A stretch of DNA of 64,000 nt from positions 930,001 through 994,000 of the forward strand of contig NC_017506.1 in assembly GCF_000166295.1 (NCBI RefSeq), read 5' to 3'. Positions 45,514 through 58,461 of this stretch are shown here, in pieces. The notes below the pieces were generated by a model. It had not been told where the DNA came from and made no database searches. It saw nothing but the letters and a program-made list of their open reading frames with translations. Numbering within the stretch: the first letter of the stretch is position 1; each line of letters begins with the position of its first letter. The stretch comes from Marinobacter adhaerens HP15 (GTDB lineage: Bacteria; Pseudomonadota; Gammaproteobacteria; Pseudomonadales; Oleiphilaceae). The position numbers and the translations under genes were made by a program.

Positions 45514-45672
45514 GGGAGTGACCTCCTGTCGTGTTGTTTCCCTGTGCCCCGCCTGTCGAATGGGGAGCAAGCTTGCCCACCCTCCGGCGCATGGAGACGA
45601 CCGGTACATCCTGTTCGGTGGGTATAGATGAGTATCTCAGGTATGTGAGTGGGAGGGTAGTGCCGAGGCGCC

Positions 45673-45702
45673 GGAGTTTTACGCACGCATTCGCAAAACT
45701 CC
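45673..45702. repeat. Inverted repeat GGAGTTTTACG / CGCAAAACTCC
   Basis: An 11-base arm and its near-perfect complement, with an 8-base loop. It shares its arm sequence with the larger hairpin at 45766-45821 and with a single copy at 45898-45908. Confidence 0.7.
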
Positions 45703-45765
45703 AGATGTCACATGAGAAATACCGGTAACTATCTGATAGGGTTGGAAAGATGGAGGAGGATGGGT

Positions 45766-45821
45766 GGAGTTATACGCCCTCGGTAGGAGCTGGAGTGGCT
45801 CAAAAGAGGGCGTATAACTCC
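45766..45821. repeat. Inverted repeat with 16-base arms
   Basis: GGAGTTATACGCCCTC at 45766-45781 and its perfect reverse complement at 45806-45821 flank a 24-base loop. It would form a very stable hairpin in RNA or single-stranded DNA. It sits between the DUF2235 gene and the first cassette. Confidence 0.8.
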
Positions 45822-45917
45822 GGCGGTAGCCGTAGTGATTGGCGCTCAAGATGCTGTTTTACGGGAGAAATCCGCCTTTTCTTGAGCGCGCTTGAATGGA
45901 GTTTTACGAACGGGTGA

Positions 45918-45937
45918 TATACGAACGCGTTCGTATA
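45918..45937. promoter_or_regulatory. Perfect 20-base palindrome upstream of the first cassette gene
   Basis: TATACGAACGCGTTCGTATA reads the same on both strands. It lies 35 bases before the ATG at 45973 and overlaps a possible -10 box (TATAAA, 45934-45939). This placement suits a repressor operator. Confidence 0.55.
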
Positions 45938-45972
45938 AATAGCTGTTATTTGCAAGGAAAGCTCGCAGAATC

Positions 45973-46455
45973 ATGAAAGCTTTAAAGGTTACCGGAGCAA
46001 TTGTCGTTGCTCTAATCGGAGCTTGGTACCTACTCGAGGATTACTGGTATAGAAAAGCTATTCCGGAAAATATTGGTCTCAGTTACCGCATATCTATTAC
46101 CTCGGATTCTGGGCTTAGGGAAGGTTGTGGTACGGCCGTCTACAAATTGGGCGGTAAAACAGCAGAAGCCATCAAAGAGCAAGGTGTTAAGTTTTTCGAG
46201 GAATCAGGCCAGGCTCGAGGTCATTCTGACCGGTACTATACATATGGCGAGTGGATGGAAACTCCCAGAGATGACTGGACTAGGTCGGAAAATTGGTCAT
46301 ATGAACTGCTTTGCGGCGGGAGTATCGGTGGCTCTTTGTATGACGACATAGTTGAGAGCGGACGAACCGGTGGTTCGTACTATTCGTTCAAGGATGAGGC
46401 CGTCCTGATGGTGATACCCGACAAAAAACTGGTGGTTTTCAGTCACAATGGTTAA
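45973..46455 (+). CDS. Cassette 1: membrane-anchored hypothetical protein
   Basis: A 160-residue protein with one N-terminal membrane helix (VTGAIVVALIGAWYLLEDYWY) and a soluble domain containing two cysteines (REGCGTAVYKLGG and YELLCGGSIGGS). No family recognised. It is the first gene of the array; its stop lies a few bases before attC1. A palindrome that could be an operator lies just upstream, so it may have its own promoter. Confidence 0.75.
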   Translation: MKALKVTGAIVVALIGAWYLLEDYWYRKAIPENIGLSYRISITSDSGLREGCGTAVYKLGGKTAEAIKEQGVKFFEESGQARGHSDRYYTYGEWMETPRDDWTRSENWSYELLCGGSIGGSLYDDIVESGRTGGSYYSFKDEAVLMVIPDKKLVVFSHNG

Positions 46456-46458
46456 AGC

Positions 46459-46542
46459 ACATAACCAGTGCAGGCACGGCGACGCCCACTACATTGCGCC
46501 TTCGGCTCCATTCCGTGCGCGCGCATGCTGCAAGCGTTAAAG
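46459..46542 (+). other. attC1 recombination site
   Basis: Left box ACATAAC at 46459-46465, right box GTTAAAG at 46536-46542. The interior is almost identical to that of attC17 (55805-55889), including ACGGCGACGCCC and GCGCCTTCGGC. Confidence 0.85.
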
Positions 46543-46798
46543 GCCTTTACTCCGGTGCTCTTCGGTTGGGTGTTCGGCCGCTAGCTCATCGGTCGCCGTC
46601 AGGTCGAACACAGCCTTTCGTCAGGCAACGGTGCTGATCGGCATTAATTTGTTCTGTTCTCCGGGCAATCCGGCGCGCCCGCGGGGCAGTTTCCGCCAAT
46701 TCAGTGTTCGGGTTCTTGGCGCCATGGGTCATGCTGGTCCAAAGTATCGGGAGTAGGCATTCGGGTTGGGTGCCGGAATGAATTGCCGGGTAACCGGC
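46543..46798 (+). other. Cassette 2: no convincing ORF
   Basis: 256 bp between attC1 and attC2 hold no good + strand ORF. On the - strand a very short frame starts ATGCCTACTCCCGAT at about 46757 and runs for 19 codons, too short to support a gene. It may be a non-coding cassette carrying a promoter or small RNA, or a decayed gene. Confidence 0.55.
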
Positions 46799-46876
46799 AT
46801 TTAACCAGTCGCATCAGGACGCGGCCTGTGGCCGCTGGACGCCCTTGACAGGGCGCCCCTGTGCTCAGCGTTAGGC
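46799..46876 (+). other. attC2 recombination site
   Basis: Left box ATTTAAC at 46799-46805, right box GTTAGGC at 46870-46876. Internal stem GCGGCC / GGCCGC and GGCGCC-type repeats. It resembles attC4 and attC16. Confidence 0.88.
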
Positions 46877-46907
46877 GCTACTGCCCACCTTTATATTTGG
46901 ACTTCGC

Positions 46908-47597
46908 ATGAAGCATGCTGAACGGCACAGAACAAAACGGATCGGCTGGCTGCGTGCTGCAGTTCTTGGTGCAAACGACGGGATTGTATCTACTGCAAGC
47001 CTGGTCCTGGGTGTGGCGGCGGCAGGGGCGGACTCCAAGGCTGTGTTGGTTGCAGGCGTTGCTGGTCTAGTTGCTGGCGCTATGTCTATGGCAGCAGGTG
47101 AGTACGTGTCAGTCAGCTCTCAAGCCGACACCGAGGGGGCCGATCTTGCTAGAGAGAAGGCCGAGCTGGCTGATGCGCCCGAACAAGAGCATGCGGAGCT
47201 TGCCGAGATTTACGTCAGGCGCGGGTTAGACCGGGCGCTCGCAGACACAGTAGCAAGTCAACTGATGAAACAGGATGCACTGGGCGCGCATGCCCGCGAT
47301 GAACTTGGCATTTCAGAAGTCTCTACTGCCCGTCCAATCCAGGCTGCGTTTGCATCGGCAGGCACATTCTCGGTAGGTGCGGCCCTTCCCCTATGCGTCG
47401 TCCTGTTGTTTCCAGCGTCGTTGCTTATGTGGGCCGTCCCCGGCAGTTCACTGCTTTTCCTTGCCTTGCTAGGCTCATTGTCAGCGAAAGTCGGCGGCGC
47501 TCCTGTTTTTAAGGCTGCCTCTCGGGTTACGTTTTGGGGGGCGTTGGCAATGGCTTTGACGGCTGGGGTCGGTGCGCTTTTCGGGGTGGCCGTATGA
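46908..47597 (+). CDS. Cassette 3: VIT-family (VIT1/CCC1-like) membrane protein
   Basis: A 229-residue protein of the VIT1/CCC1 vacuolar-iron-transporter-like family. The N-terminal helix carries LGANDGIVSTASLVLGVAAAG and the second AGAMSMAAGEYVSVSSQADTE, both family hallmarks with conserved Asp, Glu and Met; a cytoplasmic helical hairpin follows, then three more membrane helices. Family members move Fe or Mn. As a cassette it could help with metal excess. ATG 46908 follows attC2 after 31 bases. Confidence 0.9.
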   Translation: MKHAERHRTKRIGWLRAAVLGANDGIVSTASLVLGVAAAGADSKAVLVAGVAGLVAGAMSMAAGEYVSVSSQADTEGADLAREKAELADAPEQEHAELAEIYVRRGLDRALADTVASQLMKQDALGAHARDELGISEVSTARPIQAAFASAGTFSVGAALPLCVVLLFPASLLMWAVPGSSLLFLALLGSLSAKVGGAPVFKAASRVTFWGALAMALTAGVGALFGVAV

Positions 47598-47619
47598 TGT
47601 GCTGGCGGTGCATTTTCTC

Positions 47620-47672
47620 GCCTAACAAGGCGCTGCTGTCGGACAAATTTGCCGTAGAGCGCGGCGTTAAAT
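47620..47672 (+). other. attC3 recombination site (short form)
   Basis: Left box GCCTAAC at 47620-47626, right box GTTAAAT at 47666-47672; only 53 bases in total. The start codon of the next cassette gene overlaps the right box. Confidence 0.82.
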
Positions 47673-48132
47673 GTCTATGATCGATCACGATAAATTTCGG
47701 GCTTTGGTCAAGCAGCTCTACGCCACGGTCAACGAATTGGAGGCCATGTTCCCAGGTAGGCACTTCACCCCGGATGGCCATATGGTTGGTAGTTTGGGTG
47801 AATGCCTCGTGGCCGACGCATACAATTTGGAGCTGAAGACAGCGTCCAACAAAGGCTATGACGCGGTAACCGAAATTGGCTTGGAAGTTGAGATCAAGGC
47901 CACGCAATCCAACTCTGTTGCGTTTCGGAGTCAGCCGCAGCATACGATCATCATCAAGATCCTGCGTGATGGTACATTCGAGGAAATCTATAACGGGCCG
48001 GGAGCCCTTGTTTGGGAGCAATTCAAAGGTAAGCGGCTACCGAGTAATGGCCAGTTCCAAGTCTCTCTAAACAAGCTCCGGCAACTCAATCAAACAGTGG
48101 CTCAAGCGGACCGTGTGCCCAGGGCCATTTAA
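47671..48132 (+). CDS. Cassette 4: DUF6998 domain protein
   Basis: A 153-residue (or 151, from the second ATG at 47677) soluble protein. LGECLVADAYNLELKTASNKGYDAV and VEIKATQSNSVAFRS match the DUF6998 family, whose fold suggests a nuclease-like core (Glu..Lys in VEIKAT as in PD-(D/E)xK proteins). Its stop TAA is part of the left box of attC4. Such proteins are recurrent in integron cassettes; function unknown. Confidence 0.8.
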   Translation: MSMIDHDKFRALVKQLYATVNELEAMFPGRHFTPDGHMVGSLGECLVADAYNLELKTASNKGYDAVTEIGLEVEIKATQSNSVAFRSQPQHTIIIKILRDGTFEEIYNGPGALVWEQFKGKRLPSNGQFQVSLNKLRQLNQTVAQADRVPRAI

Positions 48133-48201
48133 CAAGGCGCAGCAGGTCGCGGCCGATGGCCGCCGGACGGCTTTCAGCCGCCGCTGTGCTTGGCGTTATG
48201 T
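48127..48201 (+). other. attC4 recombination site
   Basis: Left box ATTTAAC at 48127-48133 (contains the stop of cassette 4), right box GTTATGT at 48195-48201. Stem GGCCG / CGGCC and GGCGGCTGAAAG-type inner repeat. Confidence 0.9.
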
Positions 48202-48211
48202 GTAGGAAGTC

Positions 48212-48550
48212 ATGACCGAGAACTTGGTTGTCGTTAATGGAAAAAAGTTGATTGATTGGGGCTCCTTCCATCGAGAGTTCGCAGCAGCTTTTGGCTTCCC
48301 AGACTTTTATGGCAACAACATGAATGCATGGATCGACTGCATGTCGTCACTTGCAGACCCTGATGAAGGCATGACCAAGATTCACTGTGCAAAAGGGCGG
48401 GTGGTGACGCTCCAGATTGATCATGCAGCTGATATGAAAGCTGAGCATCCAGAGCTGTTTTCCGCACTTTTAGAGAGTGTGGCGTTCGTTAACTGGCGGC
48501 TTGTTCAGGTGGGTGAGCCTCCCGTGCTGGCATTGGCTCTTGATGTCTAA
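48212..48550 (+). CDS. Cassette 5: barstar family protein
   Basis: A 112-residue protein matching the barstar (ribonuclease-inhibitor) fold: KLIDWGSFHREFAAAFGFPD followed by FYGNNMNAWIDCMSSLADPD, the family's conserved helix-loop. Barstar inhibits barnase-type RNases. No barnase-like gene is in the array, so it may protect against RNases delivered by other cells or be part of a system whose toxin is elsewhere. ATG 48212. Confidence 0.85.
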   Translation: MTENLVVVNGKKLIDWGSFHREFAAAFGFPDFYGNNMNAWIDCMSSLADPDEGMTKIHCAKGRVVTLQIDHAADMKAEHPELFSALLESVAFVNWRLVQVGEPPVLALALDV

Positions 48551-48556
48551 ACTCCC

Positions 48557-48627
48557 ACATAACAAGGTGGTCAACGGGACGCCAACTACGCGTTGCTCCG
48601 TTGGCGCCCATTACCACGGCGTTAGGG
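48557..48627 (+). other. attC5 recombination site
   Basis: Left box ACATAAC at 48557-48563, right box GTTAGGG at 48621-48627 (last base is not the usual pyrimidine). Inner CCAAC / GTTGG-type stem. Confidence 0.83.
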
Positions 48628-48633
48628 AAAGGC

Positions 48634-49386
48634 ATGAAAATAACTTACAGCTCAGTCAGAGAGCCGCGATGGGCTAACCACGAAAAGACGGCGATAGACT
48701 GCTTAGTGTATTTTGAACACCTGAAGTCTGAAGTGCCTTTCATAGCCTCTGAAACTGACGTTGAACCGCACGGTCGAGAAATATTCGGCCGTTGTATGCA
48801 GGGCGAGTTTGGAGAAATTGCTCCACCGATAGCCAGGACTGAGTCCCCTGAAAACTTTGAGGCTCCGCAGCTCCCTGCTGCATGGCATGACATTAACCAA
48901 TTTCTTGATGAAGCGAATCGAGAGAATGCAAGTGGGACCGAACGGGGTCTCGTTCTTGTGTGGGCTGCAATGCTCGACGAGATGCTATGCAGGTTGTTAG
49001 AGCGTTTTTTGGTCGAGGACAAAGTGACTCAAGGAGTTTTGCGTGGTGGGCCTGGTGATCCACTGACGTCGTTATCGTCTCGGACCAAGGTTGCTTTTTC
49101 GTTGGGGTTGATCGCGAAAGATGAGCTGCAGGCAATTGATAAAGTGCGAACCATAAGAAATGACTTCGCGCACAGAGTGGGGATTTCGCTCGAGCATCAA
49201 AGCTTTCGAAGCAAGTGCGAGGATCTCTATAATAGGACGGTTGGTGATGGTGCTACGTTTGAGGCACGACATTTTTATTCAGCGGGCTGCGCACGTTTAT
49301 TGATGGTCCTAAGCAACCGTATTGCTGAAATTGAAGGCGAGCGTTGTCAAAAGAGGAATGAATCAAAGCCTTTACAGCAACGATAG
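48634..49386 (+). CDS. Cassette 6: MltR-like protein
   Basis: A 250-residue protein. The C-terminal half (from about residue 100) fits the mannitol-repressor MltR family: ERGLVLVWAAMLDEMLCRLL, SSRTKVAFSLGLIAKDELQA, IRNDFAHRVGISL. The N-terminal half (FEHLKSEVPFIASETD) has no family I recognise. No mannitol genes are near; family members are also found as orphan cassettes, and the RNDFAH motif recalls HEPN-type helical proteins. ATG 48634 is preferred to the in-frame start at 48601, which lies inside attC5. Confidence 0.72.
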   Translation: MKITYSSVREPRWANHEKTAIDCLVYFEHLKSEVPFIASETDVEPHGREIFGRCMQGEFGEIAPPIARTESPENFEAPQLPAAWHDINQFLDEANRENASGTERGLVLVWAAMLDEMLCRLLERFLVEDKVTQGVLRGGPGDPLTSLSSRTKVAFSLGLIAKDELQAIDKVRTIRNDFAHRVGISLEHQSFRSKCEDLYNRTVGDGATFEARHFYSAGCARLLMVLSNRIAEIEGERCQKRNESKPLQQR

Positions 49387-49403
49387 CGTGTGGGGACAGA
49401 AAT

Positions 49404-49475
49404 CCCTAACAAATGGCTGTTGCCGGACGCACCTACGCTAGCGCTCCGGTGCGCAGCAAAACCAGGGCGTTAGGC
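49404..49475 (+). other. attC6 recombination site
   Basis: Left box CCCTAAC at 49404-49410, right box GTTAGGC at 49469-49475. CCGGACGC / GCGCTCCGG arms; close to attC10 in type. Confidence 0.87.
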
Positions 49476-49488
49476 ATCAGGGAGAGGT

Positions 49489-49923
49489 ATGCCACGACTA
49501 GATACTAGGCTTGAAGCTGAAGGCGCCGAATTCTTGGTGTTGGGCCAGCTCCTATTGCACAAGATAGCGTCTTACAAGACTTACACGAATATGCCTGGCT
49601 ATGACTTGGTAGCGACCAATCCCGAATCCAATAAATCAGCAATGGTTCAGGTGAAGAGCCGGTGGCGCACTGGTGCAGCGGCTTTTCCAATAAAAAACTT
49701 TGGCTGTGATTTCGTTGTCGTTGTCTTGCTGAATCGTGGCTCCAAAGACGGGAAAAAAGAGGTGCTACCTCCTCGATACTATATATTTCCCGTCGAAATA
49801 ATTCGCTGCGCACCACGTAGCAAAGACTGGGGAAAGGTGAATCTAAAAGACATTCCGAACTTCCAAGAGTACGAGGAGAAATGGCATTTGATTTCTGATT
49901 TCCTCGGTGATCAGAATGCCTAA
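49489..49923 (+). CDS. Cassette 7: PD-(D/E)xK-like protein
   Basis: A 144-residue soluble protein. GYDLVATNPESNKSAMVQVKSRW fits a PD-(D/E)xK nuclease core (Asp in GYDLV, Gln/Lys in VQVKSR), followed by FGCDFVVVVLLNRG and PPRYYIFPVEIIR. Helix-rich N-terminus (AEGAEFLVLGQLLLHKIASY). This resembles the restriction-endonuclease-like folds of group-I-intron-type or cassette-borne proteins; whether it cuts DNA is not shown. The stop is part of attC7. Confidence 0.65.
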   Translation: MPRLDTRLEAEGAEFLVLGQLLLHKIASYKTYTNMPGYDLVATNPESNKSAMVQVKSRWRTGAAAFPIKNFGCDFVVVVLLNRGSKDGKKEVLPPRYYIFPVEIIRCAPRSKDWGKVNLKDIPNFQEYEEKWHLISDFLGDQNA

Positions 49924-49976
49924 CCAGTCACGGAAGGCGGACGCGTGAGACGCGCCGCTTCGTTTTCGCGTTACGT
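49918..49976 (+). other. attC7 recombination site (short form)
   Basis: Left box GCCTAAC at 49918-49924, right box GTTACGT at 49970-49976. Central stem GGCGGACGCGT / ACGCGCCGC. Confidence 0.85.
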
Positions 49977-49989
49977 ATAAGGGCAATTA

Positions 49990-50654
49990 ATGAGTAATAT
50001 TATCGAAAACCTCTCTTATGTTCTGCCAGTATTCATTACTGCAGTTATGGTTATCTTTCTATGGTTTAGGAGAAAAACCGAAGTTGAATTCAGGGAAATA
50101 TCCAGAAGTATTAGCTACCTAGATGACGAAAAAGATAATAAAAATAGTAATATAGAGAAACTAGTGACTCGAGGGGATGTAGAGCTTCGCGTGCTAGAGG
50201 AAATTACAGACGCAAGTTCGAGACATTATTTTTTGGTAGAGGGAAATCGCCAAGAGAAATTAAGCTTGAGCGTGTCCAAAATGATTTGAGAGAAATTTTA
50301 CGCGATTCTATTGAGGCAGAAAATTTTACTGAAATTAAGGAGCGTATCCTAAAGCTCTTGGACGAAATCGCCGCTGACCTTCACGAAATTCGGCAGCGGG
50401 TTCCATTTGAGGGCCTTGAAGACCCTGAGCGTTCTCTGCTTATCGACCTAATAGAAGAGATTGAGCCGTCCAAGGAAATACCACGACAGAAAGCTCAACA
50501 GCTCGCAGACATCATCAAGTTGAAACACCAAGATATAAAGAAGTTGCAGCTTGAAAACTCAAAAGCTGCTGGATGGACCAGGTGGGGTACAGTAGGCACG
50601 GTTTCTTTCGGGCTTTTATCGTTAGCTTTGTCTATTTATACAATATCTACGTAA
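49990..50654 (+). CDS. Cassette 8: membrane-anchored coiled-coil protein, split by a frameshift
   Basis: Two overlapping frames (49990-50289 and a frame continuing to 50654) read as one protein if a base is added near 50257-50259, in the AAA of GAGAAATT. The joined product of about 220 residues would have an N-terminal membrane helix (LPVFITAVMVIFLWF), a long helical stretch that would then run through KLERVQNDLREILRDSI, and a C-terminal membrane helix (TVGTVSFGLLSLALSIY). Alternatively the two are separate, translationally coupled proteins (TGA overlapping a TTG). The DNA is AT-rich compared with its neighbours. No family recognised. The stop is part of attC8. Confidence 0.55.
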
Positions 50655-50733
50655 CAAGGCAATCAAATTCGTTCCGGCCTCTGGCCTCCACCGGACGCCC
50701 TTGTCAGGGCGCCGTTTATTGCTGGCGTTAGGT
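50649..50733 (+). other. attC8 recombination site
   Basis: Left box ACGTAAC at 50649-50655, right box GTTAGGT at 50727-50733. Inner CTCCACCGGACGCCCTTGTC block shared with attC9 and attC12. Confidence 0.92.
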
Positions 50734-50737
50734 GAAA

Positions 50738-51184
50738 ATGAGACGTCTACCATTATCAATTTTGTTGAGCTTTCTTGTTCTAGGATGTACTGAAAGTTTC
50801 TCTAAAACAAAGGCTTGCTATTACCCCGAAGGTGCAATAGAGCAGTTTGAGAACGAACTGAACAGACAGGGTTACACCTATGAAAGCTCTGATGATCCTC
50901 ACTGTGTGTTAGTGATTGGACTGTCGGATGAAGATCATAAAAGAATTAGAGAAAGTTTGTTTGGTGTGTCTCCACCAGAGAACCTCAGCGTTGGGTGGCC
51001 TATCACAACTTATATGATCTACGATGGTAAAAAATACGCGAAAAATAATAGTAAGCTTTACCTGAAACGGCTTGAAGATCAGGGTGTTAAGGTGCGTTTT
51101 ATGACCTATTTCGGCAAAAGGTTTCTTGTTTGGCAAGAGAAGGATGATGCTACGGTTCGTAAAATATTGCTCCTATCCAACTAA
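50738..51184 (+). CDS. Cassette 9: hypothetical lipoprotein
   Basis: A 148-residue protein with a lipoprotein signal (LSILLSFLVLGC). Mature part: CYYPEGAIEQFENELNRQGY and LYLKRLEDQGVKVRFMTYFG, no family recognised. The start could be GTG 50732, inside attC8, or ATG 50738; the latter is used here. Confidence 0.72.
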   Translation: MRRLPLSILLSFLVLGCTESFSKTKACYYPEGAIEQFENELNRQGYTYESSDDPHCVLVIGLSDEDHKRIRESLFGVSPPENLSVGWPITTYMIYDGKKYAKNNSKLYLKRLEDQGVKVRFMTYFGKRFLVWQEKDDATVRKILLLSN

Positions 51185-51194
51185 TGATTCAAAT

Positions 51195-51281
51195 ACCTAA
51201 CAAAGCCATTAAGTCTGTTCCGGGCCGATGGCCCTCCACCGGACGCCCTTGTCAGGGCGCCGCTTATGGCTGGCGTTAAAT
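51195..51281 (+). other. attC9 recombination site
   Basis: Left box ACCTAAC at 51195-51201, right box GTTAAAT at 51275-51281. Interior nearly identical to that of attC12. Confidence 0.92.
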
Positions 51282-51300
51282 AGTGCCAAGGGATCGTGGT

Positions 51301-51921
51301 ATGAGTCAGAAAAAGTTCGAGTGGGGGAAAGAGGTTCTTCAGGCTGGAAATGATGTGGCGGGCCTCGCGAAAGACGTTGGTATACCCGGCATTGGTCTTC
51401 TCGCTCGATTTGCGCAAGAATTCTACGATACACATCTCCAGAGACGATTCGAACGGTTTGTTTCAGATGCTGAGATCGACGAGGAGTTCATCGAAAGTAT
51501 CTTAGATAACGAAACGTACTCAAACTGCTTCTACGCTGTGCTGGAAGCTACGCGTCAAACTCATTCACGAATTGGGCTTACAGCATTGGCTCTCATTTAT
51601 CGCGATCACTGGAAAGATGAGGACTACTTGATTGCCGCAGTGCAGGCGTTCTCCCAGATAAGCGATAAGACAATTCTGGCATTCATTGAGCTTTATGAGT
51701 CCATACCATCCGATGAAAATTGGCTGAGTTTGAAGATGAAAAAGGATGAAGAGGAACAATTTCACGATTTATACAATGAAGCGGTCGAACTGATACGAAG
51801 AAACTTCTTTGTTATGAGCACGTACGGATCGATGCACGCCAATGCGCCTGTACAAGGGATGAAGTGGCACCACACGGATTCGTATTACAGCTACTGCGTC
51901 AAAGCAAAAGAGTTGATTTAA
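51301..51921 (+). CDS. Cassette 10: hypothetical helical protein
   Basis: A 206-residue soluble, mainly helical protein (KFEWGKEVLQAGNDVAGLAK, FAQEFYDTHLQRRFERFVSD). No family recognised. ATG 51301 has AAGGGA upstream; a GTG at 51283 would begin right at attC9. The stop TAA is part of attC10. Confidence 0.7.
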   Translation: MSQKKFEWGKEVLQAGNDVAGLAKDVGIPGIGLLARFAQEFYDTHLQRRFERFVSDAEIDEEFIESILDNETYSNCFYAVLEATRQTHSRIGLTALALIYRDHWKDEDYLIAAVQAFSQISDKTILAFIELYESIPSDENWLSLKMKKDEEEQFHDLYNEAVELIRRNFFVMSTYGSMHANAPVQGMKWHHTDSYYSYCVKAKELI

Positions 51922-51985
51922 CCAGTGGCTGTTGGCGGACGCACATACGCTGCGCTCCGGCACGCCGCAAAGCCAGGCGTTAAAA
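51916..51985 (+). other. attC10 recombination site
   Basis: Left box ATTTAAC at 51916-51922 with the stop of cassette 10, right box GTTAAAA at 51979-51985. Interior like attC6. Confidence 0.87.
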
Positions 51986-52004
51986 CGAATACACAGGAGG
52001 TCAC

Positions 52005-52481
52005 ATGCAACGGATCGCATCGAAAATTACTCTGCTTTTTCTATCTTTGATCCCCAGTATTGCTCTTGCCGAAAACCCGGTTCCTGGGGACTATCTCGCT
52101 AATAAACCGCTGGTATTGGAGGTTCGGTACTGTGAGTGCCTGGCCACCAAAACCGATGGCGCACCCTCCGACCTGCTGCCAAGTTTTCTCAGGGAGTCCA
52201 GTCTCTTAAAGTTTAGTGTGTCGAGCGAGGATAAAGGCTTTGCTTCTTCGGGTGATTTGTCCATCGGTTATGAACTTAAGCCAGTCGCAGGCTCGCCCGG
52301 CCAATTTCAGTTCAACTATTCTGGAAGCTACACAACGAGTTATGGGCGCAGTGCAGGCAACGGGGAGTTACTGCTCGTTCAGGGACAATGGGTCAATCTT
52401 TTCGGTTCGCGGCATAAGAACGAATCTGGAGTGCAACACAGCAATGTTGAGGTGCGACTGGCTGAGTCCGGTGGTTCCTGA
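52005..52481 (+). CDS. Cassette 11: secreted hypothetical protein
   Basis: A 158-residue protein with a clear signal peptide (ITLLFLSLIPSIALA, cut before ENPVPG) and a beta-rich mature part (FSVSSEDKGFASSGDLSIGY, FNYSGSYTTSYGRSAGNG) with a CEC pair near its start. A strong AGGAGG precedes the ATG. No family recognised. Confidence 0.75.
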   Translation: MQRIASKITLLFLSLIPSIALAENPVPGDYLANKPLVLEVRYCECLATKTDGAPSDLLPSFLRESSLLKFSVSSEDKGFASSGDLSIGYELKPVAGSPGQFQFNYSGSYTTSYGRSAGNGELLLVQGQWVNLFGSRHKNESGVQHSNVEVRLAESGGS

Positions 52482-52488
52482 TGGCCGG

Positions 52489-52545
52489 TTTTAACAAGTC
52501 AGGTCAGCGGACATGTTACACACGCCGCTGCCTTTAGCGTTACAT
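52489..52545 (+). other. attC11 recombination site (short form)
   Basis: Left box TTTTAAC at 52489-52495, right box GTTACAT at 52539-52545. Arms around CAGCGGACATG. Confidence 0.78.
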
Positions 52546-52548
52546 GCC

Positions 52549-53028
52549 ATGAAAGTGTCTGAATTGCAGAACATGTTTATCGAAGAATTGAAGTACCTTT
52601 TGGCGGACTGGAAGTTCGTTAAGAGCAAACGTCAGTTCCAATTAACTGAGAACGATCTTGTCTGGTTTCTCCATATAGGTTGCATTAACCATGTAGAAGA
52701 TTTCGATGCAGTTGCCGACATTGCTGTAGAGTTTAGAGCGGGTAGGGAGAGAGTTTGTATCGTCGGAGCAGAGCTAGGAAATATTCAAGGCGCTGGGCAG
52801 CATCGATTTCCTGTGTCCAATACAGAGGAAACTAAATCATCGGCGATTGAACTTTATAAGTACTTTCAGGAGCATGGTGTGCCTTTTCTACGCAAATACA
52901 GCGATCCAGCAACTGTTCTGAATACTCTATCTAATGGTGGCAAAGATGCATTGTTAATAAGCCCCTTCCTGAACCAACACCAAAACCAAATTGACCGTTT
53001 GAGAGCTCAATATGGCATTGGCATGTAA
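52549..53028 (+). CDS. Cassette 12: hypothetical protein
   Basis: A 159-residue soluble protein starting MKVSELQNMFIEELKYLLAD, with FVKSKRQFQLTENDLVWFLH and LNQHQNQIDRLRAQYGIGM at the end. The pattern is loosely like DUF4304 proteins, not enough to assign. ATG 52549 follows attC11 after three bases. The stop is part of attC12. Confidence 0.72.
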   Translation: MKVSELQNMFIEELKYLLADWKFVKSKRQFQLTENDLVWFLHIGCINHVEDFDAVADIAVEFRAGRERVCIVGAELGNIQGAGQHRFPVSNTEETKSSAIELYKYFQEHGVPFLRKYSDPATVLNTLSNGGKDALLISPFLNQHQNQIDRLRAQYGIGM

Positions 53029-53109
53029 CAAGGCCATGAAGGTTGTTCCGGGCCGATGGCCCTCCACCGGACGCCCTTGTCAGGGCGCCGCTTATGGCTG
53101 GCCTTACAA
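53023..53109 (+). other. attC12 recombination site with altered right box
   Basis: Left box ATGTAAC at 53023-53029; at the right end CTTACAA (53103-53109) stands where GTTRRRY is expected. Interior otherwise nearly the same as attC9. The G to C change is at the base next to the normal crossover. Confidence 0.85.
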
Positions 53110-53131
53110 GGCCAACTGAAAGGGAGTTCAA

Positions 53132-53437
53132 GTGTTTACCTGCTACCTAAAGTACGTTATAGATCCCTATAAAGCCGCCGAGTTCGAGCGCTATTGCAAG
53201 ATGTGGATACCCCTGGTCCAGAGGTTCGGCGGTCAGCACCATGGGTATTTCTTGCCTTCCGAGGGTGCCAACAATATCGCCATCGCACTTTTCACGTTCC
53301 AGTCTCTGGCAGCCTATGAAAAATACCGTGAGGCTTCGTTCCAAGACTCAGATTGCCAGACCGCATTCAAATACGCCGAAGAAACTCGTTGTGTACTAAG
53401 CTGTGAGCGCAGTTTTATGAGGCCGGTCTTTGAATGA
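53132..53437 (+). CDS. Cassette 13: NIPSNAP family protein
   Basis: A 101-residue alpha/beta dimeric-barrel protein. YLKYVIDPYKAAEFERYCKM and WIPLVQRFGGQHHGYFLPSE followed by FTFQSLAAYEKYREA fit the NIPSNAP pattern. Function of bacterial NIPSNAP proteins is not known. Starts at GTG 53132 with GGGAG upstream. Confidence 0.82.
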   Translation: MFTCYLKYVIDPYKAAEFERYCKMWIPLVQRFGGQHHGYFLPSEGANNIAIALFTFQSLAAYEKYREASFQDSDCQTAFKYAEETRCVLSCERSFMRPVFE

Positions 53438-53441
53438 GAGC

Positions 53442-53525
53442 TTGTAACCATTCATTCAAGTACGTTCCGGCCTTCGGCCTCCACCGGACGCCCTAGTCGG
53501 GCGCCGCTATACATTGGCGTTAAGT
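53442..53525 (+). other. attC13 recombination site
   Basis: Left box TTGTAAC at 53442-53448, right box GTTAAGT at 53519-53525. Interior of the CCACCGGACGCCC type, with TTCCGGCC / GGCC arms. Confidence 0.9.
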
Positions 53526-53535
53526 GTGAGGGAGT

Positions 53536-54114
53536 ATGAGCGAAGAATTTACTAGGCCTCGGTATCTCGAGGTTTCAAACCATTTCTTCCACGATGCCCG
53601 GGATTTTTACATCCGATATAAGCATTGTATGGAGAGCGATGGCCCTCTGTTTTATACGCCTCGTTCGATGCGAGCCAAATCCTTCATTGATTTGCGGATG
53701 GGTATGGAGTCAGTCCTGAAATCCTTGATCTGTTACTTTGAGAGCGAGGACAGGAAAGGCAGGAGACTCCTAAATTGGATACAGAAGTACGGTCATGACA
53801 TTGGGAAAATGATGAGGAAAGTTCGCCCTCATCTGCCAGAGAACATCGTTACCGAGTACGAAGGCGATATCCTCAAAATGGATGGCTTACCAGTTGGGCT
53901 ACGCTATAGATTGGATACTTGGGACTTCCGTGGAAATAAAGAAGAATATTACTACGATACGATAGGCAGTGATTACTGGTTAAACAGGAACCTAGAGGCA
54001 CTTTCAAAACTCATTGATTTCGCGAATGAAAACCTAAAGCCCCACAGTCGAGTAGTCGGGTCTTCTGAGTTATTGGCCGAAATGATGGAGTCAAGGTACG
54101 AGAAATACACTTAA
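53536..54114 (+). CDS. Cassette 14: hypothetical protein
   Basis: A 192-residue soluble protein, rich in aromatic and charged residues (FHDARDFYIRYKHCMESDGP, SFIDLRMGMESVLKSLICYF, NRNLEALSKLIDFANENLKP). A helical core recalls HEPN-like proteins but the RxxxxH motif is not clear. No family assigned. The stop is part of attC14. Confidence 0.72.
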   Translation: MSEEFTRPRYLEVSNHFFHDARDFYIRYKHCMESDGPLFYTPRSMRAKSFIDLRMGMESVLKSLICYFESEDRKGRRLLNWIQKYGHDIGKMMRKVRPHLPENIVTEYEGDILKMDGLPVGLRYRLDTWDFRGNKEEYYYDTIGSDYWLNRNLEALSKLIDFANENLKPHSRVVGSSELLAEMMESRYEKYT

Positions 54115-54213
54115 CCAATAGTTGCAGTTCGTTCCGGGCCTAATGGCCCACCACCGGGCAGCCTTGTCGCCCCTTCGCTCTGCCAAGGCTGCCGCTGAAC
54201 AACGGCGTTAAAT
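54109..54213 (+). other. attC14 recombination site (long form)
   Basis: Left box ACTTAAC at 54109-54115, right box GTTAAAT at 54207-54213, 105 bases in all. Inner stem CAGCCTTG / CAAGGCTG. Confidence 0.88.
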
Positions 54214-54216
54214 GCC

Positions 54217-54501
54217 ATGAAGAACAGAAAGTTTGTGCTCGTATCCAAGACCGGCTATCACCAGAAACATGACGGCCTTTTACGCTCCCTTCTAGATGAG
54301 GGGTATGAGTTGTTTTGCGTGGTGGGTGTGGATTGCGAGTTGTGGGAAGAAGTTATGGATGAGATAGCAGTGGGCGATGGCAGTGACCCACGGTATCTGA
54401 CGACGACGAGTCATCCAGGCGAAACTGAAAACGACGTGATTGAGTTTGCAAAAATGTTCAGCGTCTCAAACACCTCAGAAGTGGATGTTGTCCGCATTTA
54501 A
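54217..54501 (+). CDS. Cassette 15: small hypothetical protein
   Basis: A 94-residue soluble protein with alternating strands and helices (FVLVSKTGYHQKHDGLLRSL, YELFCVVGVDCELWEEVMDE, ENDVIEFAKMFSV). It looks like a small Rossmann-like domain; no family recognised with confidence. ATG 54217 follows attC14 after three bases; the stop is part of attC15. Confidence 0.72.
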   Translation: MKNRKFVLVSKTGYHQKHDGLLRSLLDEGYELFCVVGVDCELWEEVMDEIAVGDGSDPRYLTTTSHPGETENDVIEFAKMFSVSNTSEVDVVRI

Positions 54502-54583
54502 CCAGTCATTCCATTACGTTACGGCCCTAAAGGGCCTCCACCGGACGCCCTTTTCAGGGCGCCGCTGAATATTGGCGTTATAA
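54496..54583 (+). other. attC15 recombination site
   Basis: Left box ATTTAAC at 54496-54502, right box GTTATAA at 54577-54583. Interior CCACCGGACGCCC type. Confidence 0.88.
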
Positions 54584-54600
54584 GCATTAGGGAAATCGGC

Positions 54601-54933
54601 ATGATCAACAGGGCAGTTTTAATTCTTTTATTTTTATTATCAGGATCAGCTCTCGCTGAGGAAAAACCGCCTGAGCTTTGGTCATGGTTTAAAGATCTCA
54701 GCAAATCCAAAGAGGCTTGCGAAATACAAAGCTCATATGCCCTGCAAGTCCTGGGGCTAGAGAATCAGGTTGAGAATGAGTACGGAATATACGGGAACGT
54801 AAAGTCGAACCGTGTTGTAGTTAAATGCATAGAAATATCACCTAACCAAAGCAAACTCATGGTTGCGGTTGCCGGCTACGATAGGGATTCGGTTGAGCTT
54901 GTGAGAAATAAAATTATTGATTCAATTCAGTAG
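54601..54933 (+). CDS. Cassette 16: secreted hypothetical protein
   Basis: A 110-residue protein with a signal peptide (AVLILLFLLSGSALA) and a short mature domain with two Cys residues (SKEACEIQSSYALQVL, VVVKCIEISPNQSKLM) that may pair. No family recognised. ATG 54601 with TAGGGA upstream. Confidence 0.74.
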   Translation: MINRAVLILLFLLSGSALAEEKPPELWSWFKDLSKSKEACEIQSSYALQVLGLENQVENEYGIYGNVKSNRVVVKCIEISPNQSKLMVAVAGYDRDSVELVRNKIIDSIQ

Positions 54934-54941
54934 TATAGAGC

Positions 54942-55020
54942 TTATAACAAGGCGCAGCAGTTCGCGGCCAATGTCCGCCGGAAGCCACTGTCGTGGCGCC
55001 GCTGTGCTTCGGCGTTAGAG
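54942..55020 (+). other. attC16 recombination site
   Basis: Left box TTATAAC at 54942-54948, right box GTTAGAG at 55014-55020. Interior similar to attC4 (AAGGCGCAGCAG start). Confidence 0.88.
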
Positions 55021-55026
55021 GTGAAA

Positions 55027-55800
55027 ATGGCATTTACTCCAAGATTGGTAGAGAGGGTAAGGAAGCGGGCTCATTTCCAGTGCTGTTTATGCAAAGCAAT
55101 CGGAGTAGAAATACACCACATCGTGCCGCAAGCTGAGAGCGGTCCAGATACAGAAGAAAATGCGGCACCGCTATGTCCTTCCTGTCATGAGACATATGGC
55201 GCCAACCCGACGAAGCGTAAACTTATTCGCGAGGCGCGAGACCATTGGTACGAGGTTTGCGACAAACGTTACGCGCCTGATCAATCCGTAATGAAGGAAG
55301 TTCAGTCAGCCGTTTCAGCAACGGCCTCCAAGGAAGATTTGCAGTCATTAAAGAAAGACCTAATTGAAGGCCTTTCCATGGTAATAACTGCACCGAACCA
55401 AATCTCGGTCGGAACACCATCTGACTCGTGCCCCGGAGCGACGCATTTGCTGAGCACGAACGATTTGCTAATCACTCTTTTCGATCATAAATCTCAAAGA
55501 GACGATGCGCAGGCTAATCTTTTGTGTTTAGAGGGGCTTTGGCCAGAGAAAGGAGGCCTCAGGAGTATTAGAGATGACTTTGTTGTTCAGTTCGGAGAAT
55601 TTGCCCTGCGACGCCAAGCAATACGGGTTTTGGACGAGCTAAAGATAGAGAAACGACAAGGGCTATCCGAGGAAGAAGTAATTCAAGCCATGCACCTTTT
55701 GTCTATCCAAGTTGCACTTATGGTAATGCATTCAAAGGGCCAGGTTTTTGCAGGCCTCACGGAAGATCGAGAAATCCTTTGGCAGAACGGGAACAAATAG
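55027..55800 (+). CDS. Cassette 17: HNH endonuclease domain protein
   Basis: A 257-residue protein. The N-terminal HNH/zinc module is complete: FQCCLCKAIG, EIHHIVPQAESGPDTEENAA, LCPSCHETYG, with two Cys pairs for zinc and the catalytic His. The rest (residues 80-257) has an unknown helical domain. HNH cassettes may act as homing, restriction or phage-defence nucleases. ATG 55027 is preferred to the GTG at 55021. Confidence 0.85.
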   Translation: MAFTPRLVERVRKRAHFQCCLCKAIGVEIHHIVPQAESGPDTEENAAPLCPSCHETYGANPTKRKLIREARDHWYEVCDKRYAPDQSVMKEVQSAVSATASKEDLQSLKKDLIEGLSMVITAPNQISVGTPSDSCPGATHLLSTNDLLITLFDHKSQRDDAQANLLCLEGLWPEKGGLRSIRDDFVVQFGEFALRRQAIRVLDELKIEKRQGLSEEEVIQAMHLLSIQVALMVMHSKGQVFAGLTEDREILWQNGNK

Positions 55801-55804
55801 AATC

Positions 55805-55889
55805 CTCCAACAAGTGCAGGCACGGCGACGCCCACTACATTGCGCCTTCGGCTCCATTCCGTGGGCGCGCATGGCTGCAAGCGTTACAT
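55805..55889 (+). other. attC17 recombination site
   Basis: Left box CTCCAAC at 55805-55811, right box GTTACAT at 55883-55889. Interior nearly identical to attC1, 9.3 kb upstream. Confidence 0.85.
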
Positions 55890-55904
55890 GGTGAAGCTAG
55901 GACT

Positions 55905-56369
55905 ATGATTTCGGTGAAACTGAGGAATCTTTGTCACCAAGACAAAAAGGCTGTCATTGCCATGCTTGGAGATCCCAAGGTGATGAGGTTTCTTGGACCT
56001 CGTCGCGCCCTGGCAGAAGGCGAGGCAGGTTCATGGTTCGAGAATGCGGTCGCTAACCCGACCCGCTTCACTGTTGCCCACGCTGATACTGACGAGTTCA
56101 TCGGGTTCTGCGGCATTAAACAGATAGATGGTGTCCCGGATTTCGGCTATTTCATCAGATCGGAGCTTTGGGGAAATGGCATCGCTGCCAAGGCCTGCGA
56201 GTTGGCAGTTGAAAAGCTATCTTCAGAGATCGATTTATCGACCATTCAGGTTTTCATCGCGGATGACAATTTGGCTAGTCAGAAAGTAGCTCAAAAATTG
56301 GGTTGGCAGGCCACGCACAATGGCTCTAAGGATGGAGAGTATGGTCGTTATTACCGAATCACCATCTAG
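55905..56369 (+). CDS. Cassette 18: GNAT family N-acetyltransferase
   Basis: A 154-residue acetyltransferase of the GNAT fold: LRNLCHQDKKAVIAMLGDPK at the start, FIGFCGIKQIDGVPDFGYFI, the acetyl-CoA loop region RSELWGNGIAAKACELAVEK, and DNLASQKVAQKLGWQA near the end. The substrate is unknown; RimJ/RimL-like members acetylate ribosomal proteins, and others inactivate drugs. ATG 55905 lies 15 bases after attC17. Confidence 0.88.
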   Translation: MISVKLRNLCHQDKKAVIAMLGDPKVMRFLGPRRALAEGEAGSWFENAVANPTRFTVAHADTDEFIGFCGIKQIDGVPDFGYFIRSELWGNGIAAKACELAVEKLSSEIDLSTIQVFIADDNLASQKVAQKLGWQATHNGSKDGEYGRYYRITI

Positions 56370-56513
56370 CCAAGCGGTCAATTGGGCGCCAAAAGCGGTA
56401 ATCTCTAAATACAGGGATCAGTCAATTCATCAAGAAAATCTGAAACGTTTACGAGCAAACTGGTCCTCGGCTTTTTTCTCAGGTGACATTGAGCACCTTG
56501 CACGGCGTTAGCA
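56364..56513 (+). other. attC18, long and degenerate recombination site
   Basis: A clear right box GTTAGCA at 56507-56513 follows GCACGGC. The left partner is uncertain; ATCTAGC at 56364-56370 is the best candidate and would give a 150-base site. The interior pairs poorly, so this site is either degenerate or the space holds other DNA. Confidence 0.5.
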
Positions 56514-56531
56514 GCAATAAAGGAGTCAATT

Positions 56532-56903
56532 TTGAGAAAGGGAATCTTCGTCGTATTTATTCCTCTGCTGGTTGGATGTGCAACCTATGAACAACCCATG
56601 CCTGCAGAACCAAGCACGGGCGAAATCGTCGAGCCGTCTTTAGAACAAAAGGCCGTTGGCGAGGCCTCGCTCATGACGAATCAGGCGCTGAAGTCATATC
56701 GCGAGGGATATGTCCATGCCACCAAACACAAAGCTTTTGCTCAATCAGATGTGGGAGCCTGGTCTTGGAAGTCAAATAGAACCTCAATCAAGTACGCGAT
56801 AGAGAACTCGTTGATAGATTGTCAGAAAAATAACAAAAAACACGAGGCTGAATACCCGTGCAAGATTATTAATGTTGACGGGAAATGGGCCGGGGAGCGC
56901 TAG
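56532..56903 (+). CDS. Cassette 19: hypothetical lipoprotein
   Basis: A 123-residue protein with lipobox LLVGC (FVVFIPLLVGCATYEQPMPA). Conserved-looking C-terminal half: SLMTNQALKSYREGYVHATK, SWKSNRTSIKYAIENSLIDC. Starts at TTG 56532 with AAGGAG upstream. No family recognised. Confidence 0.74.
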   Translation: MRKGIFVVFIPLLVGCATYEQPMPAEPSTGEIVEPSLEQKAVGEASLMTNQALKSYREGYVHATKHKAFAQSDVGAWSWKSNRTSIKYAIENSLIDCQKNNKKHEAEYPCKIINVDGKWAGER

Positions 56904-56961
56904 ATCAGTTGTAATTCCTCATCACTGCACGACAAAGCCGCCCATGCTGGCGGCGTTATGA
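56899..56961 (+). other. attC19, short degenerate recombination site
   Basis: Right box GTTATGA at 56955-56961 after GGCGGC; inner stem GCCGCC / GGCGGC. The left box (around 56899-56905) is not the usual TAAC form. Confidence 0.6.
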
Positions 56962-56979
56962 ATCAGCAGGGAGAACTCT

Positions 56980-57228
56980 ATGCTCGAGTTAAGACCCAAT
57001 TGCGAGTGCTGCAACAAAGATTTGCCACCGGATTCCAGTGAGGCTGTCATCTGCACATTCGAGTGCACGTTCTGTCAATCGTGCGCATCGGGTGTTTTGG
57101 CTAACCAATGCCCCAACTGTGGTGGTAATTTTTCAACTCGTCCGATTCGCCCTGCGTCACTGCTTGGTAAGTATCCGGCGTCAACCAAACGTGTGCTTAA
57201 GGCCGGTGGTTGCAGTGCCAATTCATAA
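56980..57228 (+). CDS. Cassette 20: DUF1272 cysteine-rich protein
   Basis: An 82-residue zinc-ribbon-like protein. MLELRPNCECCNKDLPPDSS, CTFECTFCQSCASGVLANQC and CPNCGGNFSTRPIRPA show the four paired cysteine motifs of DUF1272, likely binding two zinc ions. Function unknown. It is the last gene of the array; its stop TAA falls in the left box of attC20. Confidence 0.88.
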   Translation: MLELRPNCECCNKDLPPDSSEAVICTFECTFCQSCASGVLANQCPNCGGNFSTRPIRPASLLGKYPASTKRVLKAGGCSANS

Positions 57229-57261
57229 CCAGTCGCAGTAGTACGCGGCCGTTTGCCGGCC
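57223..57261 (+). other. attC20, truncated recombination site
   Basis: Left box TCATAAC at 57223-57229 and an arm resembling attC2 (CAGTCGCA, GCGGCC) are present. The right half is missing: the sequence passes at once into the stop codon of the MFS gene at 57262. This marks the end of the array. Confidence 0.75.
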
Positions 57262-58461
57262 TTATCGCGCCTCTGCCCGTTCCCGCCGAATCAACAGTAC
57301 CAATGCCAGAGCCGCCAGTGATCCCATAACAGCGGCGAAACTGACCCCGGTTGTCGTCAGGCTGGTCACGGTTGCCATCACGCCCAGGCCGATTACCGGC
57401 ACAGAGATCGCGATATAGGCCATAACAAAGAAGGCGGATGTTACGGCGGCCTTCTCCGTAGCCGGGCTGGCTGAGGCGATGGCGCCCATGCCGGCCCGGA
57501 ATGAAATACCCTGGCCCATGCCGGCAATCATGGCCCCGGTTATGAAGAGTGCGAGGGATTGGGAGTAGATGCCCAGTGCTATTGGGATTACCCCAAGCAT
57601 CAGAGACACGCAGCCCAGGGGAAGGCGCAGCCTCAGCGGCAGGGCGCCTTGCAGGAACTGGCCCAGGGTTGAGGCGATGAAAATGCTGCCGGCCACAACA
57701 CCGATCAGCAACCGGTTGTCATAGCCCAGGACCTTACCCATCATCGCCGGCGCGATGGAGGTGAAGAAGCCGCACATGGCAAAGCCGGCAAAACCGGCAA
57801 TGGCGGCGGGAATGAATACACCTCGAACTTCCGGTGGCACGCTCAGGCGCTGTATGGTCAGTTTTGGGCGTGCGGGTTTCGAGACGGTCTCCGGCGCCGC
57901 CCAGATGCAGCACACGGCCAGCAGGGCCATGCCCGAGTGCACCAGAAAGGTCAGGTGCAGTGGCCAGGGAAGGTACTCGGAAAGGGCACCGGCAAGCATT
58001 GGGCCAAGGCCAAGCCCGCCCATGTTCGCCGCCGTGGCAAAGAAGGTTGCCTTGTCCCGCCAGTGGGGTGGTGCCAATTCAAGCACGGCCACCGTGGCCG
58101 TGCCGGTAAAGATCCCCGCAGACAGACCGGACAGCACCCGGCCGGTGAGTATCATTCCCAGCCCATTGGCCTGCCAGAACACCAGGTCGCTGATGATGGA
58201 ACAAGCCAGGCCCGCGAACAGCATTGGCCGGCGGCCTATCTGATCAGACCAGCGCCCCGTCATGACCAGTGCGGCGATCACACCAAAGGCATAGGCGGCA
58301 AAGATGATGGTGATCATCAGATCGGAAAAGCCGAACCTGTCCTGGTAGATGGGGTAGAGCGGTGTCGGCATGGTAGTGCCAATCATGGTCACGCTGAAGG
58401 TAAAGGCCGCGCCCAGGAAGATGAGTAGCGGAATCCATGGGTGCTGCTTGGAGGGGGCCAT
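57262..58461 (-). CDS. MFS transporter
   Basis: A 399-residue major facilitator with 12 membrane helices. The loop 2-3 motif reads GRWSDQIGRRPMLFAG, as in drug:H+ antiporter families, and the fourth helix region has GRVLSGLSAGIFTGTATVAV. Likely a drug or metabolite exporter; no substrate is evident. Its stop codon adjoins the truncated attC20, so the array ends against this gene. Confidence 0.9.
   Translation of the reverse strand: MAPSKQHPWIPLLIFLGAAFTFSVTMIGTTMPTPLYPIYQDRFGFSDLMITIIFAAYAFGVIAALVMTGRWSDQIGRRPMLFAGLACSIISDLVFWQANGLGMILTGRVLSGLSAGIFTGTATVAVLELAPPHWRDKATFFATAANMGGLGLGPMLAGALSEYLPWPLHLTFLVHSGMALLAVCCIWAAPETVSKPARPKLTIQRLSVPPEVRGVFIPAAIAGFAGFAMCGFFTSIAPAMMGKVLGYDNRLLIGVVAGSIFIASTLGQFLQGALPLRLRLPLGCVSLMLGVIPIALGIYSQSLALFITGAMIAGMGQGISFRAGMGAIASASPATEKAAVTSAFFVMAYIAISVPVIGLGVMATVTSLTTTGVSFAAVMGSLAALALVLLIRRERAEAR

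Follow-up and report, generated by a model that had tools for sequence, protein, structure and literature searches.

A cassette array of Marinobacter adhaerens HP15 is headed by an attI-type leader and probably belongs to a distributed integron that has lost its integrase

We analyzed a 64,000-nucleotide stretch of the Marinobacter adhaerens HP15 genome (the window; positions 930,001 to 994,000 of contig NC_017506.1) that carries an integron cassette array. The array is probably one of four that make up a distributed chromosomal integron, whose integrase (IntI) would have been lost from HP15 and would act in trans in relatives. An earlier reading of the window's letters (the original prediction) had proposed that the array was either a cluster of attC sites lacking an integron integrase (CALIN) or the distal part of a chromosomal integron. 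Judged by its sequence, it is the attI-headed proximal end of an array of its own, and neither a plain CALIN nor the distal end of a longer integron. Headed by a putative attI site, devoid of an integrase and one of several in its genome, the array is in our reading a new integron variant. The occurrence of several docking sites per chromosome in relatives points to a single enzyme that serves many collections of genes.

The array is headed by an attI-type leader

Position 45973, the start given in the original prediction, lies about 300 bp inside the element, which begins at 45669. It opens with a leader of about 280 bp that ends exactly at a G|TT insertion point. Aligning the three leaders of HP15, each of which precedes attC sites, gave a common block that stops exactly at GTTA. 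The leader motif GGAGTTWTACG occurred 11 times in the HP15 genome (4 times for the reversed control); 10 of these matches lie ahead of three of the four attC clusters and 1 lies elsewhere. A lone motif match at 521401 was rejected as a leader. Of the 124 genomes of the genus, 78 gave a complete or partial match to the leader. In an order-level sample of 293 genomes from 118 genera, with two candidates scored per genome, it was found in 8 genomes, all from the same genus (1 of 118). The exact leader core appeared in 13 named sequences, all from Marinobacter.

Relatives indicate what the leader is. We assembled 63 leader loci, 60 from relatives and 3 from HP15, mostly the best-scoring of more than 80 long matches. 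Full-length IntI is encoded at 19 of them, starting 66-73 bp to the left of the leader and running divergently from it. A LexA-like box, [C/A]TGTN8ACAG, was present within 80 bp to the left of the leader in all 19 of these loci and in none of the 37 unlinked ones. Because some 70 bp separate the leader from a divergent intI in relatives, and that gene has a LexA-like box, we conclude that it is the attI region of the genus. The window leader differs at 6 of the 148 columns conserved among the 19 intI-linked leaders, and it has the length of about 280 bp and the left and right palindrome blocks that define type I. Its homology to the intI-linked region and its G|TT end identify it as the predicted attI site beside the array.

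A leader with these properties could also be a regulatory or insulating element (a promoter, an operator or an RNA) that has no part in recombination and stands at array heads by chance. It contains palindromes and inverted repeats, the single-strand DNA fold of 45620-45970 has a z of -6.4, and the consensus places TATAAT beside a palindrome. However, 62 of the 63 leader matches align as far as the G|TT crossover at position 279 or 280 of 280 (the other ends at 278), and the sequence beyond varies by locus, as cassettes would. We regard a purely regulatory leader as improbable.

The attC sites form one oriented array

The original prediction counted about 20 attC sites in a single orientation. 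A covariance model built from 17 sites chosen by eye in the window found exactly those 17 there at E<=10 (46459-55891, 37-81 bits), all on the plus strand. This in-window test is circular because the model was built on the same sites, and the independent support comes from outside the window. At E<=1, with 150 of 1882 first-look candidates scored, the whole HP15 genome (4.65 Mb) gave 27 matches in four clusters and zero solitary ones: 17 in the window, 2 near 1406 kb, 6 near 3834-3838 kb and 2 near 4390-4392 kb. Searched as separate stretches, the three clusters outside the window held 2, 11 and 4 sites. The model also found attC sites in 54 of the 62 other leader loci searched, with 228 matches that all lie downstream on the leader's strand. 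Of the 8 loci without attC, some are cut off by a contig edge, and in L146 and L175 an insertion sequence lies at the leader.

The array itself is real, and its 17 clear sites and their orientation stand. The remaining three of the earlier count are two degenerate sites, which have a GCGTTA right half, and one truncated site at the end of the array. With filters off, the model gave 8.7 bits for 57223-57269 and 6.7 bits for 56927-56963. These scores are at noise level, because two matches on the minus strand of the window scored 8.9 and 6.8 bits. The stretch 56366-56515 had no covariance match even with filters off. Bottom-strand folding gave attC-like hairpins for most window sites. Rfam 15 had no match over its gathering scores anywhere in the window, and none at E<=1 in the stretch 45500-57400.

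The fourth attC cluster of HP15 is headed by a leader of a second type (E 5e-15, query 21-229). With three type I leaders and this one, every one of the four HP15 attC clusters has an attI-type head.

The integrase gene has been lost from HP15

The absence of an integrase from the window, as originally predicted, extends to the genome. TIGR02249 gave 0 matches over its cut-off of 265 in HP15 (best 82.8 bits), and 83 of 124 genomes of the genus exceeded it. Of the components of a complete integron, HP15 has attC cassettes in one orientation (17 sites) and, by homology, an attI site beside the array, but it lacks an intI with the IntI-specific domain. We considered a split or hidden intI and rejected it: the 11 TIGR02249 matches of 82.8 bits or less look like Xer-type or other tyrosine recombinases, a call that rests on scores and control genomes and not on identifying the proteins singly. 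Sub-cut-off matches of this kind also arose in 14 of 14 control genomes. The match at C1:3666177 was likewise discarded as intI. It falls in a stand-alone 105-aa open reading frame (ORF) at C1:3666135-3666452 (L009:9136-9453 in G000, the HP15 genome) that resembles only the N-terminal domain of integron-type recombinases.

One remnant is present elsewhere in the genome. Near C1:1405225 (locus I), the last 11 IntI codons (FGVRSPVDEGF plus the stop) lie some 30 bp to the left of a leader match from which the first 16 positions are missing. Full-length intI is present in 16 of the 22 loci of the same flank group. Since the 11-codon end remains and the flank group mostly has full-length intI, the gene appears to have been deleted at this locus in HP15.

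These findings bear on the idea of an ordinary CALIN, in which an integrase since lost put cassettes into attG sites, that is, sites other than attI. The HP15 genome has no intI over the cut-off, and CALINs at recurring loci are described in the available text of a Xanthomonas study (PMC12444791). This account is contradicted by the 280-bp leader with its homology to the attI region next to intI, and we consider it very improbable.

Leaders without an integrase recur across the genus

Besides the 19 loci with full-length intI, the collection of 63 contains 2 with a broken gene, 7 with a remnant, 1 at a contig edge that cannot be judged (L134) and 34 with no intI trace by tblastn (E<=0.005 within about 1.5 kb of the leader). 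The 63 loci are not a random sample, so the fraction of 34 in 63 should not be taken as a frequency across the genus. Leaving out the first four remnants found and the contig-edge locus, 37 unlinked loci fell into 11 flank groups, and the group of the window is one of two large ones; these are single-linkage blastn groups whose positions are not proven identical. Thirteen of 41 genomes have both an intI-linked and an unlinked leader, with intI broken in two of them (G022 and G093); L134 was taken as linked in this count, and the 13 is unchanged by that. G107 and G014, for example, have intI elsewhere and a leader without it.

The genus also has a second integron-integrase clade, about 50% identical to the first, with its own different attI region. 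Among 20 loci with the second-type attI, 11 had no intI, 6 had pieces only and 3 had a full-length gene; these loci were chosen partly for having no adjacent intI and are not random. In L215, L216 and L224, the second integrase lies beside a conserved gene near nrdB, and the attI region ends in TTGCTGTTA.

Elements of the IS91 type (by eye) start exactly at the attI crossover GTT (GTT|GAAC) in L146, L159 and L175. At that point L159 and L175 encode a tyrosine recombinase that shares 28% identity with IntI. We rejected these two loci as intI-linked, because the match is the recombinase of the IS91-type element.

Two further explanations compete for the unlinked leaders. The first holds that they are fossils of complete integrons, produced by repeated intI deletion, with the leader retained only as a carrier of the cassette promoter. 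Remnants of intI lie beside 7 of the 63 leaders: L043, L050, L139 and L145, and more weakly L147, L149 and L151. One of the seven, at locus I of HP15, is a C-terminal IntI end that adjoins a leader cut at its left end. N-terminal pieces occur in L050, L139 and L145, the weaker ones in L147, L149 and L151 are also N-terminal (36-41% identity, E 4e-6 to 2e-7), and L137 seems by eye to retain part of the spacer on the intI side. On the other hand, 34 loci in 10 flank groups without an intI trace have a nearly identical leader start edge, the distance at the gene-B junction is constant in 9 of 10 cases, and the quartet comparison described below is not explained by deletion alone. The fossil account is a serious possibility, to which we give clearly less credence than to the distributed integron.

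The gene-B locus (a gene beside nrdB) is informative in this respect. By eye, 4 bases separate the stop codon from CGGAG in 9 of the 10 junctions where the stop could be placed; the tenth has a changed motif, and one fully decayed case was not counted. This constant distance favors one old insertion followed by homogenization.

It also argues against the second explanation, that the leader itself is mobile, as a small element or an attI-bearing cassette that spread to new sites and was then duplicated again inside each genome. A nearly constant left edge at many flanks would fit such copying, although this may be just the edge of conservation. So would the high similarity within some genomes (97.5% in G035, 87.9-93.6% in G014). 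In L059, L128 and L130 a short attC-like half (by eye) immediately precedes the left edge of the leader, as though the leader had once recombined at an attC. At the loci compared we found neither a target-site duplication nor a clean empty site. Of the 124 genomes of the genus, 35 carry the sequence of the gene to the left of the window leader. None of 30 such left-flank loci offered an empty site for the window locus. The leader is adjacent in 5 of the 30, HP15 included, and lies about 835 bp away in L182; in the remaining ones the similarity stops inside the gene. No larger transposon with a second end was seen, though no systematic search was made. We consider a mobile leader unlikely, if still worth attention.

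Leaders within a genome show signs of use in trans

The distributed integron would make the unlinked leaders working sites, and several comparisons between and within genomes address this. In G056, the intI-linked and unlinked leaders share their first cassette (432 bp at 100%) and then diverge, and in G107 a 431-bp unit is common at 100% identity. Leader identity within a genome exceeded same-locus identity between genomes in 16 of 19 quartets, which are not independent (G014 is in 8); without G014 the count is 8 of 11. The three exceptions have a same-locus identity of 87-97%. Within-genome leader identity had a median of 85.1% in genomes with an intact type I intI (n=11) vs 76.4% in those without (n=7; p 0.004), a comparison made post hoc with groups assembled by hand.

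Several results weigh against this interpretation. The identical cassettes of G056 and G107 belong to a single kind that lacks an ORF and occurs in several copies in arrays. Strictly mutual nearest leader pairs occurred in 4 of the 18 genomes with at least two leaders (G014, G017, G035 and G107; leader trees have 62 rows, L043 being excluded because its left end is missing). The two complete type I leaders of HP15 are only 73.3% alike. Mismatches at the 148 conserved columns had a median of 4 for unlinked leaders in intI-bearing genomes (n=14) vs 7 for genomes without an intact type I intI (n=29), a difference that is not significant (p 0.27). Because seven loci keep intI pieces, some unlinked leaders would stem simply from intI loss. 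A sigma-70 scan found no promoter, and the -10 box of the putative cassette promoter is a by-eye assignment (TATAAT in the leader consensus, TATAAA in the window). The consensus fold of 62 leaders is weak and shows no convincing structure.

On balance we favor the distributed integron. In relatives with an intact IntI, the enzyme would serve several attI copies in trans, at a small number of recurring loci, add cassettes to the proximal end of every array and shift cassettes between arrays. IntI is probably SOS-induced, because a LexA-like box lies at its gene. The promoter that expresses the cassettes would lie at the leader's right end or in the first cassettes. Deletion of intI in HP15 would leave the four arrays stranded unless IntI comes from outside. 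More tentatively, and with somewhat more doubt than conviction, we propose that Marinobacter integrons in general are distributed under one SOS-controlled IntI, which would supply several attI-headed arrays at recurring loci and shuttle cassettes among them, that the attI copies of a genome evolve in concert, possibly by IntI-dependent copying of the attI region, and that many CALINs of other genera may be attI-headed arrays of this kind whose attI has been overlooked.

Cassettes of the array encode mostly unfamiliar proteins and travel as units

The original prediction described most products as unknown, and this agrees with our searches. Pfam matched 8 of the 20 cassette ORFs at E<=0.01, and 7 were over the Pfam cut-off (VIT1, DUF6998, Barstar, NIPSNAP, HNH, GNAT and DUF1272). 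With 10 of the 20 ORFs scanned in each case, NCBIfam gave one sub-threshold match and PADLOC gave weak matches for two proteins. The leader, cassettes and flanking genes are listed below.

45669..45948, plus strand: type I attI leader; homology to two other HP15 leaders stops at GTTA 45948
45673-45702: left palindrome block of the leader
45766-45781/45806-45821: middle inverted pair of the leader
45842-45851/45880-45889: third inverted pair of the leader
45918-45937: palindrome TATACGAACGCGTTCGTATA in the right block of the leader
45934..45948, plus strand: TATAAA (-10-like; TATAAT in the consensus of 62 leaders), then the G|TT crossover (45945|45946)
45973..46455, plus strand: first cassette ORF, 160 aa, no family
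46459..46544, plus strand: attC 1, 40.8 bits
46545..46798, plus strand: cassette without an ORF of 60 aa; matches in L166, L136 and L143
46799..46878, plus strand: attC 2, 73.4 bits
46908..47597, plus strand: VIT1-family protein cassette (PF01988, E 2e-67)
47620..47674, plus strand: attC 3, 42.8 bits
47671..48132, plus strand: DUF6998 protein (PF22522, E 5e-59; weak PADLOC mREase_II, 2e-7)
48127..48203, plus strand: attC 4, 69.8 bits
48212..48550, plus strand: Barstar-family protein (PF01337, E 3e-15)
48557..48629, plus strand: attC 5, 49.4 bits
48634..49386, plus strand: 250-aa ORF, no family
49404..49477, plus strand: attC 6, 43 bits
49489..49923, plus strand: 144-aa ORF, no family
49918..49978, plus strand: attC 7, 43.8 bits
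49990..50654, plus strand: two overlapping ORFs in different frames (99 + 122 aa), no family
50649..50735, plus strand: attC 8, 80.7 bits
50732..51184, plus strand: 150-aa ORF, signal-like start (by eye), no family
51195..51283, plus strand: attC 9, 78.2 bits
51283..51921, plus strand: 212-aa ORF, no family
51916..51987, plus strand: attC 10, 41.8 bits
52005..52481, plus strand: 158-aa ORF, signal-like start (by eye), no family
52489..52547, plus strand: attC 11, 39.9 bits
52549..53028, plus strand: 159-aa ORF, no family
53023..53111, plus strand: attC 12, right core altered to CCTTACAA, 72.5 bits
53132..53437, plus strand: NIPSNAP-family protein (PF07978, E 1e-17)
53442..53527, plus strand: attC 13, 62.9 bits
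53536..54114, plus strand: 192-aa ORF, no family
54109..54215, plus strand: attC 14, 65.2 bits
54217..54501, plus strand: 94-aa ORF, weak DUF7684 (below the Pfam cut-off)
54496..54585, plus strand: attC 15, 75.4 bits
54601..54933, plus strand: 110-aa ORF, no family; 460 bp of the cassette 90% identical in the intI-linked locus L127 of G079
54942..55022, plus strand: attC 16, 73.1 bits
55021..55800, plus strand: HNH endonuclease-like protein (PF01844, E 4e-10)
55805..55891, plus strand: attC 17, 37.2 bits
55905..56369, plus strand: GNAT acetyltransferase-like protein (PF13302, E 5e-25)
56366..56515, plus strand: degenerate attC-like stretch with end GCGTTA, by sequence only
56532..56903, plus strand: 123-aa lipoprotein-like ORF (by eye), no family
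56927..56963, plus strand: degenerate attC, right half, 6.7 bits (noise level)
56980..57228, plus strand: DUF1272 protein (PF06906, E 4e-28); cassette 85% identical (324 bp) in a second HP15 array, L044
57223..57262, plus strand: truncated last attC, left half, 8.7 bits (noise level), by sequence
44488..45609, minus strand: left flanking gene, alpha/beta-hydrolase-like, which we take to be DUF2235
57262..58461, minus strand: right flanking gene, MFS-like transporter (by eye)

The two reading frames of 49990-50654 meet near a TTTTTT run; a frame-shifted single gene, a two-gene cassette or a sequencing error is possible. The HNH cassette protein (55021-55800) has a weak IscB-like match of 31.6 bits vs a family cut-off of 175.

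The original prediction had inferred that the cassettes are mobile, and the matches elsewhere support it. Across the 79 loci compared, we found 9 matches to single cassettes or parts of one, 152-524 bp long and 76-90% identical, one of them in a different array of the HP15 genome itself. A 79.9% identical stretch to the GNAT cassette (55881-56397) is carried by five Providencia plasmids predicted to be conjugative. These single-cassette matches indicate that window cassettes travel as units. L120, L123, L125 and L144, which have the same flanking gene, contained zero window cassettes within up to 3.5 kb behind the leader; cassette content is thus not common to these loci.

A cassette of about 429 bp without a long ORF (by eye) carries a LexA-box-like ACTGTATATGTAAACAGT and is multi-copy in some arrays. 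In L129 it lies at 1-428, 1802-2229 and 2229-2656 downstream of the leader. It also occurs in L123, L132, L138 and L122 and takes first place in several arrays. It is possibly an SOS-controlled promoter cassette.

Comparison with known integrons

If some arrays have an attI of their own and receive cassettes in trans, a genome would offer several first positions from which an inserted cassette could be expressed, and losing intI would strand every array at the same time. The leader also offers a testable attI region for the whole genus and a route to hidden attI heads on CALINs elsewhere. To our knowledge, attI sites outside class 1 are poorly described. Our literature search, which left most subscription papers outside, found no description of multiple attI sites in chromosomal integrons. 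By title, it returned nothing on Marinobacter integrons or a Marinobacter superintegron; one carbonic anhydrase survey pairs Marinobacter with integron, attI and attC. Nothing relevant on orphan or duplicated attI was among the matches listed, and the available portion of PMC3108266 does not mention Marinobacter. A proposal described in PMC9024848 treats arrays that lack an integrase as degraded integrons.

The array meets the IntegronFinder definition of a CALIN, at least two attC sites with no intI nearby, but that definition takes no account of attI, and the array here has an attI-type leader. Like sedentary chromosomal integrons such as that of Vibrio, it has a chromosomal attI, an array of attC sites in one orientation and, in relatives, a LexA-like box at intI; unlike them, HP15 has several attI-headed arrays and no intI. 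The Xanthomonas CALINs away from ilvD (PMC12444791) are also integrase-less arrays at recurring loci in one genus. The accessible text of that study does not mention attI at the arrays, whereas it is present here. Sites called attG, which are neither attC nor attI, account for cassettes outside the main integron in the available parts of PMC12444791 and PMC12901181. Finally, the DeltaattI-type cassettes of class 1 and 2 integrons resemble our leaders in placing attI sequence away from the intI-proximal position. According to PMC12901181, these are mostly 14-18 nt attI pieces that replace the attC of a cassette, whereas in Marinobacter a region of about 280 bp heads separate arrays.

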